Positions 29,174 through 63,760 of a stretch of DNA of 64,000 bases are shown in pieces. A program made the position numbers and the translations under genes. The notes under the pieces were generated by a model that worked only from the letters and a program-made list of their open reading frames with translations, was not told where the DNA came from and did not search any database. The DNA comes from a virus, in IMG/VR virus record IMGVR_UViG_3300032287_001974, positions 21,633-85,632 of that record; one strand, given 5' to 3'. The first letter of the stretch is position 1. Every line of letters begins with the position of its first letter.

Positions 29174-29247
29174 CGCGGTGTGGGGCAGCTCGGTAGTCCG
29201 CTAGGCTCATAACCTAGAGATCGCAGGTTCAAATCCTGCCACCGCAA
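29174..29247 (+). tRNA. tRNA-Met (CAT), initiator-like
   Basis: A 74-base cloverleaf. The acceptor arms are CGCGGTG and CACCGCA, so position 1-72 is C:A unpaired, the hallmark of bacterial initiator tRNA. The anticodon loop is CTCATAA, the T arm GCAGG-TTCAAAT-CCTGC. The anticodon stem is CTAGG/CCTAG, not the usual three G:C pairs next to the loop. The 3' end is ACGA, so CCA is not encoded. Confidence 0.9.
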
Positions 29248-29263
29248 CGAAAGAAAGTGCAAT

Positions 29264-29401
29264 ATGGCAAAAGGAAAGGGCGGAGGCCCAAAGCCACCTG
29301 TTAAGGGCGGTAACTCAGACCGCAAGAACGGTAAAGCTGACAAGAAGTCTCCAAAAGTCTTTGACCCAGTAAAGCGCCGTCTTGTAACTAAAACTAAATA
29401 G
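29264..29401 (+). CDS. Small basic Gly/Lys-rich protein
   Basis: A 45-residue frame (MAKGKGGGPKPPVKGG; end KRRLVTKTK) lying between the tRNA-Met and the tmRNA. It is strongly basic and has no detected homology by eye. A short upstream AAAG run is a weak ribosome site. It may be a real small protein like those at 4.4-6.3 kb. Confidence 0.45.
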   Translation: MAKGKGGGPKPPVKGGNSDRKNGKADKKSPKVFDPVKRRLVTKTK

Positions 29402-29407
29402 TGACTA

Positions 29408-29738
29408 GGGGATGATCGGTTTCGACGGTCATTCGTAAATTGGTGAAGCAAGCAGAGATAGCGGAGTCTCTTAAAACCGCTAAAAAAATAAATGCTGAAT
29501 CTCGTTCTGCATTCGCACTAGCTGCCTGATCGTAGTTAGTACCCCCAGGAAAGCAGCAGTTCTAGCTGGGCACTTGGGTTTTAAATAAATAGAACAACTT
29601 GTATCACGTCCATGCTGGAGACGTAAAACTGAAGCACCACAGGATGTGGCAGTTCGGTCCTGGAAATATAAACTGCCTAAGCTTGTAGAAGAACAACACA
29701 CTAATGATCGGACCGGGGTTCAATTCCCCGCATCTCCA
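29408..29738 (+). ncRNA. ssrA: tmRNA (ssrA) with proteolysis tag
   Basis: A 331-base transfer-messenger RNA that rescues stalled ribosomes. The 5' end GGGGATGATCGGTTTCGACG and the 3' T arm GGGGTTCAATTCCCC with acceptor CATCTCC are typical. The tag frame (29479-29529) reads AKKINAESRSAFALAA and then TGA, ending in the degradation signal ALAA. It lies inside a tRNA cluster. Phage tmRNAs are known, for example in cluster C mycobacteriophages such as Bxz1. Confidence 0.95.
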
Positions 29739-29800
29739 CGCTTGCAGATAAAGGGAGCGCCCAGCGGTCTGCCCGTCCTAGGCAACGGAATTCTCCCAAT

Positions 29801-29872
29801 TGATCACTAGCTCAACGGCAGAGCAACGAGCTGTTAACTCGAAGGTTCCTGGTTCGAATCCAGGGTGGTCAG
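29801..29872 (+). tRNA. tRNA-Asn (GTT)
   Basis: A 72-base cloverleaf with acceptor TGATCAC/GTGGTCA (one G-T pair), D arm GCTC/GAGC, anticodon loop CTGTTAA and T arm CCTGG-TTCGAAT-CCAGG. The anticodon stem has one A-A mismatch at its outer end. CCA is not encoded. Confidence 0.92.
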
Positions 29873-29874
29873 CC

Positions 29875-29948
29875 CGCGGGGTAGGGTAGTTAGGTAATCC
29901 GCCAGCTCGACTAGCTGGAAATCGTGGGTTCAAATCCCACCCCCGCAA
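29875..29948 (+). tRNA. tRNA-like gene, isotype undetermined
   Basis: A 74-base cloverleaf: acceptor CGCGGGG/CCCCGCA (again C1:A72 unpaired), D stem GGGT/ATCC, T arm GTGGG-TTCAAAT-CCCAC. The anticodon arm is CCAGC-TCGACTA-GCTGG: by position the anticodon would be GAC (Val), but the loop lacks T33 and has T at position 37, and a 6-bp stem with a 5-base loop is possible. It may be a derivative of an initiator tRNA or a decayed tRNA. Confidence 0.55.
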
Positions 29949-29949
29949 C

Positions 29950-33968: not shown

Positions 33969-34041
33969 GCCTCAATAGCTCAGTTGGTAGAGCGCCATAC
34001 TTGTAATATGGATGTCGCGGGTTCGATTCCTGCTTGGGGCT
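33969..34041 (+). tRNA. tRNA-Thr (TGT)
   Basis: A 73-base cloverleaf: acceptor GCCTCAA/TTGGGGC (one T-G pair), D arm GCTC/GAGC, anticodon arm CCATA-CTTGTAA-TATGG, T arm GCGGG-TTCGATT-CCTGC. CCA is not encoded. It lies apart from the other tRNAs. Confidence 0.93.
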
Positions 34042-34061
34042 CTCAATAACTAAGGAGAACC

Positions 34062-45346: not shown

Positions 45347-45628
45347 ATGTCTGAAACACCAGAAGAGCAATTCCTACGCGTAGGAGCAGGAAGTAACCCA
45401 CAGTCGGTTGCCTCGGCTATTGCGCACGCCATTTATGAGAATGGCACCTGTAAACTACGCGCTGTAGGCGCGGGAGCAGTAAACCAGGCGGTAAAGGCTA
45501 TAGCCATTGCCAGCGGGTACACAGCCCCTCGCGGAATTAGCCTAGTTTGCATCCCAGGCTTCGCATCCGTAGAAAGCAACGGAGACACAATCAGCGCGAT
45601 TGTGTTTAAAGTAAATTCAGTTAGCTAA
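45347..45628 (+). CDS. SpoVS-family protein
   Basis: A 93-residue protein matching stage V sporulation protein S: FLRVGAGSNPQSVASAIAHA, CKLRAVGAGAVNQAVKAIAI, and GISLVCIPGFASVE. SpoVS is an Alba-like small DNA/RNA-binding protein known from spore formers and some other bacteria. In a phage it could alter host development or nucleoid structure. TATAGT at 45304-45309 and AGAGG at 45334-45340 may be its -10 and ribosome site. Confidence 0.9.
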   Translation: MSETPEEQFLRVGAGSNPQSVASAIAHAIYENGTCKLRAVGAGAVNQAVKAIAIASGYTAPRGISLVCIPGFASVESNGDTISAIVFKVNSVS

Positions 45629-59830: not shown

Positions 59831-61216
59831 TTATGCCTCTACTTCTGATTCGTCTGCTTGGAAAATAGTGGTTTCGACTTCGATACCGAATCCCTGACCG
59901 ATACCATGCTTGGCGGTGTCCATGACCAACTTGACTGCCTCACGCTCGTCATCTAAGAATCCGTTGATGTAGGACTTAATAGCGTAGTCAAGACTTACAT
60001 TCTCAACATTCTTGACGAACGACATGAGCCCTCGGGTTGAGATAGGCGTGTCGATTTCGCCCTTGTCGGCACTCGCACGCAACTTGTCGGCGACCTCAAG
60101 CAACGCCGAGTTCTTAATAAGTTTGCGTTCGATTGTCTTGTCGTAGTCGAATTCTAACTTGTGAGCGAATCGGTCTTTCCACGCTTGGTTCATAGGGCGA
60201 GCACCTCGGTAGTTCGGGTTGTGGTCGCCGATTACAACTAGGTCAGGGTGAGCCTTGATTACCTCGCCACCATTCTCTAGCAACTGGATTTCTCGGCGGT
60301 CGTCTAGCAAGCCAAACAAGACTGTTGTGATACGCTCTGGCATGAAGTCGATTTCGTTGAGCAAGAGCACGCCACCATGTCTTACCAAGTCTGTTACAGG
60401 TCCGTCTTGCCAGCGGAACACACCAGCGGTTTCGGTCGGTGTCCAAGCACCGAACAGGTGGCTCGGCTCAAGCCCGACATTCGCCGAGATGTTGTAGTAG
60501 CGGTAGCCACGACTGCTTGCCCATGCGAGAACACACATGGTCTTACCCGAGCCAGCGTGACCACGAATCAGAACATTCTGGTTCTGGCTCATGGCGACAT
60601 CAAGAATGTCGAAGTCGGTTTTCTTGCCGTCAATCTTGCGGTTGAGGTAGGTGTCTGCCCACTTGCGGTCAGGCACGCATGCGAGTTCGGTCGGCATTAG
60701 AGCCGAGGTTGGGGTTACTGGTAGCGGAACAACCTTGTTATCGGTGATCGATTGGTTCTCTACTGCTGGTGCGGTGGCAGGGTAGAACGCTGGCTCAAGG
60801 GTCTTAATCGGCTTGAGGATTACAGGGTTAGAGCGTCTGCCGTCACGAACATAGCGGTTGAGGTCTGAATCACCAGCGAACAACTGCTCACGCAAGCGAG
60901 CGACCAAGGCGTAGTGCGGTAGGTCGAAGTCGGCAGGGATAGCAGGGTTGGTAAGAGCCTTGACCGACAGGTTGGTAATGTTGCCGATTGAGGCGTTGGC
61001 GACATCACGCTCGGTGATAAGAACGCCGTTTGGCTGACTGGTAACAGGATAGTCAGGCAGGGTATCAACATCAGATACGAGTTGCCATGCTTGACCACGA
61101 CCACGCTGTCCGTTGGATAGGCGGTGGAACATCAGAACATCACTCTCGCTTGGAACGAGAAGTGTTTGGGCTTTACCTGAATCGGTAACGCTTTCTACGA
61201 ATAGAGAGATAGACAT
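59831..61216 (-). CDS. MoxR/CobS-like AAA+ ATPase
   Basis: A 461-residue AAA+ protein starting at ATG 61216. Walker A is GHAGSGKT in VLIRGHAGSGKTMCVLA, Walker B GVLLLNEIDFMPE, and sensor LVVIGDHNPNYRG. The N-terminal ~200 residues are a separate domain. Only 4 bases separate it from the vWA gene, so they are co-made and likely form a complex. Confidence 0.85.
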   Translation of the reverse strand: MSISLFVESVTDSGKAQTLLVPSESDVLMFHRLSNGQRGRGQAWQLVSDVDTLPDYPVTSQPNGVLITERDVANASIGNITNLSVKALTNPAIPADFDLPHYALVARLREQLFAGDSDLNRYVRDGRRSNPVILKPIKTLEPAFYPATAPAVENQSITDNKVVPLPVTPTSALMPTELACVPDRKWADTYLNRKIDGKKTDFDILDVAMSQNQNVLIRGHAGSGKTMCVLAWASSRGYRYYNISANVGLEPSHLFGAWTPTETAGVFRWQDGPVTDLVRHGGVLLLNEIDFMPERITTVLFGLLDDRREIQLLENGGEVIKAHPDLVVIGDHNPNYRGARPMNQAWKDRFAHKLEFDYDKTIERKLIKNSALLEVADKLRASADKGEIDTPISTRGLMSFVKNVENVSLDYAIKSYINGFLDDEREAVKLVMDTAKHGIGQGFGIEVETTIFQADESEVEA

Positions 61217-61315: not shown

Positions 61316-61680
61316 GTTACCAATCCGTTATCAAAAAATAGGGTCGCATGCGTAGCGGATTACCCGCAAAAAATCGGGGCTTGACTGATTCGACCTCTAC
61401 ACCTCATAGAGAGTAATCCTATTAGAGAGAGTTCTATTGGTTGTAGCGGAACAAGCCTGATAGTAACTACTTCCAGCGAGCATGCCTCTCACATCTGGGC
61501 GTATCCCTGCGTGCTTAATGGGCTTATTAGGCAGTAGCCTAAACGGGGCTTAGCATAGTTCTCTCTCTAGCACAATAGGCGTTACCAGATCGTTATACTC
61601 TCCTCTCTCTATGCTTCCTTAGCAGAAACCAAGCAAACAGTCAAGGCCGGCTCTCTCTTCGTTACGCAATCGTTATAATC
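61316..61680 (+). repeat. Three copies of an 11-bp-spaced CGTTA element
   Basis: Copies lie at 61316-61336, 61580-61600 and 61660-61680. The last two read CGTTAC-N3-ATCGTTATA with A or C then TC, and the first is GTTACCAATCCGTTATC. Each holds two GTTA half sites 11 bases apart, one helical turn. The last two end in TATACT or TATAAT and TCTCC, so they may be plus-strand promoters with built-in operators. A fourth related copy is at 63393. Confidence 0.6.
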
Positions 61681-61690
61681 TCCTAATAGG

Positions 61691-61780
61691 CTTGTTGGGT
61701 TGGTAGCCTTTAGCCTATATAGCTATTCGGGAAATCCGTCCGTCCGGCCGGCTTAGGCTAAAGGCTACCAACCCAACAAG
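61691..61780. repeat. Long inverted repeat IR1 (27-bp perfect stem)
   Basis: Left arm 61691-61717 and right arm 61754-61780 are perfectly complementary over 27 bp, separated by 36 bases. The arms start CTTGTTGGGTTGG. The element lies about 12 bases after the TATAAT of the third CGTTA copy, so a plus-strand RNA starting there would begin with this hairpin. A related element with different stem sequence is at 63423. Confidence 0.8.
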
Positions 61781-61808
61781 TTTGCTAAGATTGTCGCCAA
61801 AAATGGGG

Positions 61809-61903
61809 AAAGCCCCGAGCGGATGATGACTCGGGGCTTTCAGCAGGGCACAGAAAGGGGAAGAAGCCCTGCTTGTTGGCGGGTGGGAAGGAGATCCCGC
61901 CAA
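61809..61903. other. Cluster of three hairpins downstream of the 61910 gene
   Basis: Stem 1: AAAGCCCCGAG / CTCGGGGCTTT at 61809-61840. Stem 2: AGCAGGGC (61842-61849) / GCCCTGCT (61866-61873). Stem 3: TTGGCGGG (61876-61883) / CCCGCCAA (61896-61903). Stem 1 with following T can end minus-strand transcripts and plus-strand ones; the others may protect or shape the RNA. Confidence 0.65.
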
Positions 61904-61909
61904 GTTTAT

Positions 61910-62113
61910 TTAGTCGTCTAGGGCTTCCGCAATGGTATCTACCTCTATGAACTCAACATCTGCGTCTAAGTCCGTGAAGTCATACCCTTTTCCCTCGTAT
62001 TCATCCTCGTCTGTGTGACCATTAGCCACGTGGAACTTCGCAAGAGCCTCATCCTCGCTGCGTGCCTCTACCTCAAAGGCTTCACCCGATAGAATTCTGT
62101 ATTTCTTTGGCAT
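61910..62113 (-). CDS. Small acidic protein (DpnD/PcfM-like layout)
   Basis: A 67-residue acidic protein (KKYRILSGEAFEVEARSEDE; ALAKFHVANGHTDEDEYE) with an ideal AAGGAGG six bases before its ATG. The beginning matches the strand-strand-helix layout of the minus-strand small proteins. Unknown. Confidence 0.6.
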   Translation of the reverse strand: MPKKYRILSGEAFEVEARSEDEALAKFHVANGHTDEDEYEGKGYDFTDLDADVEFIEVDTIAEALDD

Positions 62114-62155
62114 TTTATGCCTCCTTTTCTTTATTTGATTGTAGCACAGGTAGCA

Positions 62156-62281
62156 CTACTTGTTTTTCTTTGCCTGGAACATAATGAGCCAAGCCTGGAA
62201 TGACGCGAGAGCCATAATAAGTTTGCTTAGTGTTCGTATAGACGACCCTAGGAACGTAATAGGCTTACGGTGTTTAGACAT
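62156..62281 (-). CDS. Small amphipathic protein
   Basis: A 41-residue frame (MSKHRKPITFLGSSIRTLS; ALASFQAWLIMFQAKKNK) with a hydrophobic C-terminal half and basic ends, possibly membrane-active. The ATG overlaps the stop of the upstream gene, with GAGG nearby. Short, so not certain. Confidence 0.45.
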   Translation of the reverse strand: MSKHRKPITFLGSSIRTLSKLIMALASFQAWLIMFQAKKNK

Positions 62282-63056
62282 TCTCCGCCTCAATCCCAGC
62301 CGTGGCTGACACTAAACAGCCTAGTTCCTCTCTGTGTTCCTCTAGGTCAGGGTCAGCCATAGCACCCTCACCCTCGTCACACGCCCAGCAGTAGCCTCGC
62401 AGGTCCACATAGACCTCGTGGGTGATAGGCAAGTCAAGGTCGTAAGACCGCTCTCCGCTTGTCCAGCCTATTTCGCACGCAAAGCACGAGTTCTCGTCAA
62501 GGCTCTTGATAAGGAATGTTAGGGTTGGATACTGCTTAGCAAGACTATCTATTGCTGATACAGGTGGCGACCACGCACTCTCGAACTCATAGGTTAGTTC
62601 CCTATCAGTCCTGCTAACGTGAGCCTCGCTGATTTCCCATTTTGTGCCCCAGTTACGCACATTCCAGTTATACCAGTCCATACCGACAGCCATTTCAGCC
62701 ATAATGCTCGCCATACTGTCTTGGAACTGCTCTGAACCCAATGGTGGCATTTCAGAGATAGCCTCTTTGATTTTCTCCACAACTACCTCTGGGGTGAGTT
62801 TGTTCTCATCCTCAATAGGATTGTTGCGGTCGGCTATGCGTTGTTCGGTCTCGGCACGCTGGTAGTAGGTGTCAAGGTCAATCGGGCGAATGGCGTTCCA
62901 CAAAAGGAACTCTCCCGAAGTGATCGACTTATCAACCCTATTTTCTACATAGTTGTAGTGTTCAGAGTCATAAGGCGTAGCCATTTGGGCTTGGAGTTCA
63001 TCTAGGGTCTCTTTGTCACCAGAGATAACAAGTCTGTTAGTTACCCAGTTAGGCAT
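62274..63056 (-). CDS. DUF1281/Api92-like protein
   Basis: A 260-residue protein. MPNWVTNRLVISGDKE at the start, WYNWNVRNWGTKWEIS and FESAWSPPVSAIDSLAK match the DUF1281/Api92-like pattern of plasmids and phages (ferredoxin-like fold). The unit has a Cys region at the end (CFACEIGW...CWAC). Function unknown. Confidence 0.85.
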   Translation of the reverse strand: MPNWVTNRLVISGDKETLDELQAQMATPYDSEHYNYVENRVDKSITSGEFLLWNAIRPIDLDTYYQRAETEQRIADRNNPIEDENKLTPEVVVEKIKEAISEMPPLGSEQFQDSMASIMAEMAVGMDWYNWNVRNWGTKWEISEAHVSRTDRELTYEFESAWSPPVSAIDSLAKQYPTLTFLIKSLDENSCFACEIGWTSGERSYDLDLPITHEVYVDLRGYCWACDEGEGAMADPDLEEHREELGCLVSATAGIEAENV

Positions 63057-63180
63057 TGGTGTCCTCGCCGTCCTCGTAGTAAGAGATGAAGTTGTCTAGG
63101 CAGTTGTCCAACGCACTACACAAGTCCTCCCACTTGTCGTCTGACCAGCCCTCGGGCTTGTCGAAAAGGTATTGTTCCAT
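63049..63180 (-). CDS. Small acidic protein
   Basis: A 43-residue protein (MEQYLFDKPEGWSDDKWEDL; NCLDNFISYYEDGED). Acidic, aromatic-rich. Its start overlaps the next gene and its end overlaps the DUF1281-like start. Unknown. Confidence 0.5.
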   Translation of the reverse strand: MEQYLFDKPEGWSDDKWEDLCSALDNCLDNFISYYEDGEDTNA

Positions 63181-63326
63181 TATGATGCCCTTCCATCTAG
63201 TTTGGTTAGTTCTCTCTCAAACCAATCGTCGAACGAGTGCTCGCACGATTCGCATAGAGGGTGAACAGTTGTGATGTCAGCGACTTCCATTTCGGCTTGA
63301 CATTTGTAGCACTCTGTCTTTTCCAT
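63180..63326 (-). CDS. Small zinc-ribbon protein
   Basis: A 48-residue protein: CYKCQAEMEV and CESCEHSFDDWFEREL give two CxxC pairs. AAGGAGAG lies six bases before the ATG. May bind nucleic acid or a protein partner. Unknown. Confidence 0.65.
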   Translation of the reverse strand: MEKTECYKCQAEMEVADITTVHPLCESCEHSFDDWFERELTKLDGRAS

Positions 63327-63392
63327 AATCTCTCCTTCCAAAGAGGTAATACCAGACTACAGGATAGCCTCTCTCTCCTGCACCACTCTAGA

Positions 63393-63408
63393 TAACATTT
63401 GAATAACG
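63393..63408 (-). repeat. Fourth CGTTA-type spaced element
   Basis: The plus strand reads TAACATTTGAATAACG, two TAAC sites 11 bases apart, the complement of the GTTA layout at 61316-61680. On the minus strand TTATCT follows it and could be a -10 for the small minus-strand genes. Confidence 0.45.
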
Positions 63409-63422
63409 ATTGCCTATCAGGC

Positions 63423-63506
63423 TTGTTGGGTTGGAAGCCTAATAGCCTATGCGGGATAGATCCGCATAAAACAGCTGCTTAGGCTATTAGGCTTCCAACC
63501 TAACAA
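63423..63506. repeat. Long inverted repeat IR2 (related to IR1)
   Basis: Left arm 63423-63449 and right arm 63480-63506 pair over 27 positions with a single G-T. Outer sequence matches IR1 (TTGTTGGGTTGG), but inner stem bases differ on both arms so that pairing is kept. The 30-base loop has a second stem TGCGGG/TCCGCA. Confidence 0.8.
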
Positions 63507-63511
63507 AACAA

Positions 63512-63609
63512 ATAAGCCCCAACACCTCACGCACAACCTTCGCACGAGGTCAGGAACCAAAATGGGCTGAGCGTCTGCTCGGGGCTGTGTGGCGGGTGTT
63601 GGGGCTTAT
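63512..63609. other. Structured element IR3 (15-bp stem, branched interior)
   Basis: Left arm 63512-63526 (ATAAGCCCCAACACC) pairs with right arm 63595-63609. The 68-base interior contains a GAGC-GTCT-GCTC hairpin and a CCTC/GAGG region. It follows the stop of the 63620 gene on the minus strand and precedes T-rich DNA on that strand, so it may act as its terminator or as part of an RNA. Confidence 0.55.
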
Positions 63610-63619
63610 CTGGGTCTTG

Positions 63620-63760
63620 TTAGTCGTCTATGTCTTGACCGCACTTGGAACAGGTAGCGAAGTCATGGTCATCACCAGACACCTCGCACTCGTCACAGGT
63701 TAGCCATAGATACGGCTCGGAACAACAGGGGGATAATGGCCTTGCGGTTTTCCCGTTCAT
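63620..63760 (-). CDS. Small Cys-rich protein
   Basis: A 46-residue protein (SPCCSEPYLWLTCDECEVSG; CSKCGQDIDD) with CxxC pairs, likely zinc binding. Its start overlaps the upstream gene by four bases. Unknown. Confidence 0.6.
   Translation of the reverse strand: MNGKTARPLSPCCSEPYLWLTCDECEVSGDDHDFATCSKCGQDIDD

Follow-up and report, generated by a model that had tools for sequence, protein, structure and literature searches.

Two long inverted repeats in a phage genome belong to a family of elements that share the outer motif TTGTTNNGTTGG, of which we collected 64 distinct copies from ~20 related phage contigs, with 3–11 per array. The anatomy of these elements, taken alone, is close to certain. 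As to their function, our tentative proposal, held with somewhat less than even confidence, is that each element is a DNA-level hairpin that bounds an early transcription unit, has its arms maintained by template switching, and may insulate the next regulated promoter.

Two inverted repeats and further copies in the same genome

The window analyzed here, a 64-kb stretch corresponding to bases 21633–85632 of an 85,632-base IMG/VR phage contig, contains two of these elements:

61691–61780, no strand assigned: IR1, type A, with outer motif TTGTTGGGTTGG, a 27-bp perfect stem and a 36-nt loop
63423–63506, no strand assigned: IR2, type A, with a 27-pair stem including one G-T pair and a 30-nt loop containing an inner hairpin

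The preliminary description had placed two related repeats at exactly these positions, with 26–27 kept pairs and compensated differences between the inner stems, and we recovered all of these features. The arms of IR1 (61691–61717 and 61754–61780) are complementary at 27 of 27 positions, those of IR2 (63423–63449 and 63480–63506) form 26 Watson-Crick pairs out of 27 plus one G·T pair that lies inside the outer motif, and wherever the inner stems of IR1 and IR2 differ, the opposite arm carries the matching change. A small hairpin had been reported in both loops; that of IR2 is clear (TGCGGGATAGATCCGCA), but that of IR1 is weak. Likewise, both repeats are real, but the genome holds at least four copies rather than two: a further two (G000:C1:601-670 and 1560-1647) lie beyond the window, and the contig start cuts into one more. 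Orthologues of IR1 are present in G001, G003–G007 and others. The stem scores of 27 for IR1 and 24 for IR2 compare with a best score of 14 when the whole window was dinucleotide-shuffled 20 times, and the folding z-scores of the two repeats range from -10.4 to -11.6 on either strand; chance does not account for these stems.

The element family in related actinophages

Relatives were collected via the AAA-ATPase gene and DNA patterns, elements being retained when at least 8 of 12 inner bases matched; going by the IMG sample numbers, the relatives are presumably mostly of freshwater origin. Genes for PolA, RecA, a Cas4-like exonuclease, a RuvC-like resolvase and a WhiB protein, together with an AAA-ATPase nearest to those of Gordonia and Brevibacterium phages, lead us to infer that the host is probably actinobacterial; a weakly KorA-like protein is also encoded. 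The genome further carries a tmRNA gene (window 29408–29739, tag AESRSAFALAA), tRNAs for Met, Asn, Val and Thr (window 29174–29949 and 33969–34042) and a gene for a SpoVS-family protein (window 45347–45628, Pfam E 3.7e-28).

The 12-bp outer motif is conserved between genomes and nearly constant inside one genome, its middle two letters (GA, GG or AG) being mostly fixed per genome and differing between genomes. It reads TTGTTGAGTTGG inward in type A and CCAACTCAACAA inward in type B elements. Stems are 25–45 bp long, loops span 26–40 nt, and the spacing between the two dodecamers ranges from ~39 to 74 bp; lone dodecamers elsewhere in the genomes are scattered, mostly intragenic, and lack a hairpin. 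The distal copies, class C, keep the paired dodecamers, and most of their interiors form two hairpins, yielding a three-way junction in which hardly any base is left unpaired, so that what is conserved is a fold and not one sequence. The last hairpin of class C has a bulged A on the gene-sense strand in 8 of 8 cases (including two from elements truncated at a contig end), and one sense-strand G-U pair occurs in this class. The bulge suggests that a folded strand may be recognized and weighs most heavily against a purely symmetric cruciform; together with the G-U pair, it fits a folded RNA or one-strand DNA better.

Toward the AAA-ATPase gene, arrays run from class C through type B to type A, with no exception seen among arrays many of which are cut by contig ends; this fixed order was observed in G004, G005, G006, G011, L094, L100 and L104. 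Orthologous slots can be occupied by type A in one phage and type B in another.

Our searches identified no matching described element, in line with the preliminary description, which knew of none. At the elements, Rfam 15 yielded no covariance-model match above the gathering score, which excludes a known Rfam family; the sub-threshold matches were to miRNA precursors only, as long hairpins tend to give. A DNA-level search of a phage collection returned no match, and a host origin was rejected, 84,980 bacterial genomes having produced one match (Bifidobacterium) with an imperfect stem, at about chance level. Among cultured relatives identified by the AAA-ATPase (ChisanaKitsune, GMA6, DalanDe, Cantare), scanning of 20–54 kb around and beyond the gene revealed no such repeats, the only find being one 18-bp palindrome in GMA6.

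An assembly artefact was likewise discarded: the elements of G005 recur identically in three assemblies, and therefore the perfect arms were not produced by assembly. About 12 contigs (G000, G001, G004, G006, G007, G011, L024, L096, L100, L104, L105 and L109) end inside an element or within about 25 bases of one, as would be expected where perfect repeats exceed the assembler word size. Assemblers thus seem to break at these repeats, and the early arrays of such phages in public data are probably under-assembled.

Pairing and covariation

Across the 64 elements, counting 24 pairs from the outside inward, pairs 8–20 are Watson-Crick in every element (64/64), with G-U in 0 of 832 inner pairs, compared to 7.8% G-U in the terminator regions adjoining the elements. 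The 31 non-Watson-Crick cells (13 A·C, 10 G·U and 8 other) lie nearly all in pairs 1–7 or at the loop end, and the numbers of surviving A-C and G-U mismatches indicate no strand preference for wobble. Inner-match counts are bimodal, with 60 elements at 12/12, which under a filter of 8/12 implies that the perfection of the stems is not filter-made. We aligned 34 elements of type A, having excluded one with a short stem, and 29 of type B, and counted 133 and 149 two-sided changes, respectively (282 in total). One-sided changes and unpaired cells were confined to outer columns 1–7, with none from the ninth pair inward in either alignment, and the covariation score was reached by 0 of 500 shuffles. 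Relatives thus keep the paired changes, a point on which the preliminary description had made its interpretation depend.

Probable copying between the arms

Comparison of G005 with G006 showed that 3 of 5 orthologous elements have altered inner stems, by several bases each, and that the figures for left and right inner-arm divergence are equal (0.72/0.72, 0.71/0.71 and 0.78/0.78), with 0.84–0.97 for the flanks (84–97% identical). Among type A loops, similar pairs were found 23 times in forward and 11 times in inverted orientation, versus 0 with shuffled loops; the clearest inversion is between the orthologues G004:4559 and L100:4572, whose flanks are conserved on both sides. Arm homogenization and spacer inversion are the recognized outcomes of template switching between inverted repeats (PMC8604942), and the block changes without wobble intermediates, along with the inverted type A loops, match template switching between arms in DNA. 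The compensation points to self-folding of a strand at the DNA level and, alone, would not prove an RNA function. Kept pairing, which had been regarded as strong evidence for a conserved RNA or DNA structure, is therefore no proof by itself, as template switching yields the same pattern.

Under the proposed mechanism, the strand would fold back on itself in vivo, as the joint change of the arms and the loop inversion suggest, and, when the DNA is replicated, template switching would let one arm serve as the template for the other. The hairpin would either be extruded as a cruciform, through the negative supercoiling that builds up behind the neighboring promoter, or form in an exposed strand. 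The RecA, Cas4-like exonuclease and RuvC-like resolvase encoded by the phage count in favor of such a DNA hairpin, whereas the kinetic difficulty of cruciform extrusion with 26–40-nt loops counts against it.

The slot between terminator and promoter

The neighborhoods of IR1 and IR2 contain the following features:

61808–61841, minus strand: intrinsic terminator ending the operon upstream of IR1, with 13 pairs followed by CCCATTTTTG
61660–61677, minus strand: operator-like 11-bp direct repeat TATAACGATTGCGTAACG, a short distance downstream of IR1
61580–61597, minus strand: second operator-like copy TATAACGATCTGGTAACG
61316–61332, minus strand: third operator-like copy GATAACGGATTGGTAAC, assigned from the sequence
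61616–61644, minus strand: candidate promoter TTGACT-N17-TAAGGA, proposed from relatives and scoring under the promoter-scan threshold
59831–61216, minus strand: AAA-ATPase (CobS-like) gene, downstream of IR1, whose operon is the proximal end of the array
61910–62113, minus strand: small gene ending upstream of the IR1 terminator
63512–63609, minus strand: terminator-like hairpin adjoining IR2, ATAAGCCCCAACACC / GGTGTTGGGGCTTAT
63180–63326, minus strand: gene that opens the operon downstream of IR2, 48 aa, RBS GGAAGGAGAG
63620–63760, minus strand: gene that closes the operon upstream of IR2

Read in the direction of the genes, the end of an operon is followed by a terminator, the element, 11-bp direct repeats, the promoter region and the start codon. 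The adjoining hairpins mentioned in the preliminary description correspond to the terminator at 61808–61841 and the stem at 63512–63609, and in relatives a terminator occupies the same position upstream of the elements as it does for IR1. Direct repeats equivalent to the operator-like sites of IR1 lie downstream of most relatives' elements; almost all early promoters are preceded by such operators, whose versions differ from genome to genome (TATAACGATTTGATAACG; GTTCACCTGTTGTTCACC; CCTGTGAATTCCCTGTGAA), and the GTTCACC and TCACAG forms look similar to actinobacterial PhoP boxes. The median distance from an element to the next ATG is 116 bp (quartiles 104–127); the leader between IR1 and the AAA-ATPase gene, at 475 bp, is longer than the others and includes three operator-like repeats. 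Perfect stems of 36–45 bp engulf the operator repeats, mirror-imaging the operator in the other arm, at G000:C1:1560-1647, in L094 (6571-6662 and 7375-7476) and in L108 (1171-1256).

The related phage arrays contain one element per early transcription unit, right after the terminator, and the near-complete genomes have no elements outside early-operon slots, the other long palindromes there being terminators. This distribution is a poor fit to the replication or packaging role entertained earlier, since elements of that kind would not appear exactly once for each early operon and be missing everywhere else. Nor are the elements themselves intrinsic terminators: they are not followed by a T run, and a distinct terminator precedes them. 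A small RNA or a protected terminator, also among the earlier suggestions, fits poorly with copies that sit after the terminator and before the next promoter. According to our proposal, a hairpin in this position, with the dodecamer duplex at its base, could insulate the regulated promoter from read-through and supercoiling originating in the neighboring operon.

Several competing explanations bear on this arrangement. The elements might act in RNA, as stems in read-through transcripts that are cut by RNase III or bound by a protein, thereby separating the mRNAs, with template switching merely keeping the stem perfect. Perfect stems of 25–31 bp are good RNase III substrates, the three-way junction of class C has its conserved bulged A on the gene-sense strand, and RNA hairpin stems, too, are known to be maintained by template switching (PMC8794818). 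As template switching could equally maintain an RNA stem here, the absence of G-U pairs does not decide between DNA and RNA function. Nevertheless, we regard an RNA element as unlikely, because little RNA is expected in a slot between terminator and promoter, type A loops occur in both orientations, and RNase III would not need a conserved dodecamer; the lack of G-U among the inner pairs, and of any G-U excess over A-C on either strand in the outer motif, also counts against it.

Alternatively, the early promoters could all be controlled by a phage regulator whose operator is the dodecamer, and the palindrome inside would then have arisen passively, through template switching between the paired inverted sites. 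Like phage repressor sites, the motif is near-constant per genome and variable between genomes; it adjoins the promoter, and the WhiB-like and weakly KorA-like proteins of the phage would be available. The spacing of ~39 to 74 bp in combination with two relative orientations (types A and B) would, however, hardly be tolerable for one dimer, the separate 11-bp direct-repeat operator is already present, and class C retains the dodecamer pair around two inner hairpins, which makes this explanation decidedly improbable. Least probable among these, in our estimate, are selfish or neutral hairpins, that is, REP- or MITE-like repeats spreading between intergenic slots and kept perfect by template switching. 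Inner tips and loops are indeed shared by non-orthologous elements in G004, G005 and G006 (for example, GCCCGA-AGCCCC(C)TAATAAA(A)GA-TCGGGC), but the pattern is too regular, with one copy per unit, always between terminator and operator, and none elsewhere. Moreover, orthologous slots are filled even among phages with ~60–70% identical AAA-ATPase, and no transposase was seen among the scanned proteins.

Relation to known repeats and possible exchange of early operons

Extended start-associated sequences (ESAS) of cluster K mycobacteriophages resemble the elements in being inverted repeats with a group-specific consensus upstream of some early actinophage genes (PMC3203893). They are 17-bp imperfect repeats with a 4–13 bp spacer whose departures do not support base pairing, and they contain a SigA-like promoter and adjoin a SAS (PMC3203893, PMC11373665). 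Unlike ESAS, the elements described here have perfect stems of 25–45 bp with fully compensated departures and a candidate promoter downstream, and the 13-bp SAS GGGATAGGAGCCC was not found at a start codon downstream of any element when the sequence was read by eye. The 282 two-sided changes and perfect inner pairing set the elements apart from ESAS, which we rejected as an identification. The stoperators of actinophages are single 13-bp sites, a short asymmetric motif repeated at early-gene boundaries in phage-specific variants; the elements share these traits with stoperators and other repeated operators, but here the motif is an inverted pair closing a hairpin.

Promoter-early stem-loop (PeSL) cassettes of T4-like phages join a stem-loop to an early promoter, lie among small genes where the genome is plastic, and are linked to modular shuffling (cited in PMC4503421). 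The elements, too, occur among small genes of a plastic region, with terminator, hairpin and operator/promoter region all present. In PeSL cassettes the stem-loop reportedly doubles as the terminator; here, the terminator is a distinct structure ahead of the hairpin, the dodecamer is conserved, the perfect arms are much longer, and there is no conserved loop. On these features, PeSL cassettes are the nearest functional analogue.

The order of operons varies between phages, and there is one hybrid junction, the element IR1287 of G006, whose upstream flank is that of G005 IR44051 and whose downstream flank is that of G005 IR44694. Gene neighbors across elements were the same in 33 and different in 43 cases, versus 41 and 42 elsewhere, in crude ORF calls, and clustering of upstream and downstream parts across elements is confounded by divergence of the downstream part. 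Because neighbor conservation is not clearly lower at the elements, the recombination-joint part of the proposal rests on few cases; a role as cassette joints is possible, and the same hairpin could, judging from the one clear hybrid junction, serve for whole-operon exchange between phages.

A related explanation sees in each element a folded single-strand site for a recombinase or nickase, so that early operons would be swapped as cassettes by an integron-like logic. Like integron attC sites, the elements are foldable, separate cassettes (one element per cassette) and keep pairing in a variable inner part, and class C has bulged bases. The outer boxes of attC are GTTRRRY and RYYYAAC; GTTGAGT, GTTGGGT and GTTAGGT in most arms fit this consensus, type B in the attC order, an agreement that may be coincidence. 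In contrast to attC, the cassettes here have their own promoters and the outer motif occurs in two relative orientations. Extrahelical bases characterize attC sites (PMC3053210), and the perfect A and B stems contain none, whereas the class C bulges lie in two separate hairpins. No tyrosine recombinase (PF00589) was detected in the nine phage records to which the search was confined (0/9; positive controls 14/14); a host integrase would be conceivable. Integron attC sites served by the phage's own integrase were rejected on the basis of these nine records, and a dedicated recombination joint appears improbable.

A more far-reaching possibility, which we consider just as improbable at present, is that the elements constitute a new class of phage cis-element, in which a protein would recognize a folded single DNA strand, insulate early operons and also recombine them as cassettes, following the logic of integrons without an integron integrase. 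The fold-back dodecamer duplex would sit either on a single long hairpin or, in a three-way junction, on a pair of bulged hairpins, and the candidate recognizing protein would come from the phage or the host.

Compensated changes in a stem are usually regarded as the strongest sign of a functional RNA, and these elements show near-perfect compensation in dozens of copies. With wobble absent, arms changing in blocks and loops inverted, all signs of copying in DNA, the family offers a natural test case for template switching as both maker and keeper of hairpins. Small early operons are often sources of host-takeover and anti-defense genes. If the boundary or recombination role is true, the elements would help to explain how such operons of freshwater actinophages can be independently regulated and exchanged.
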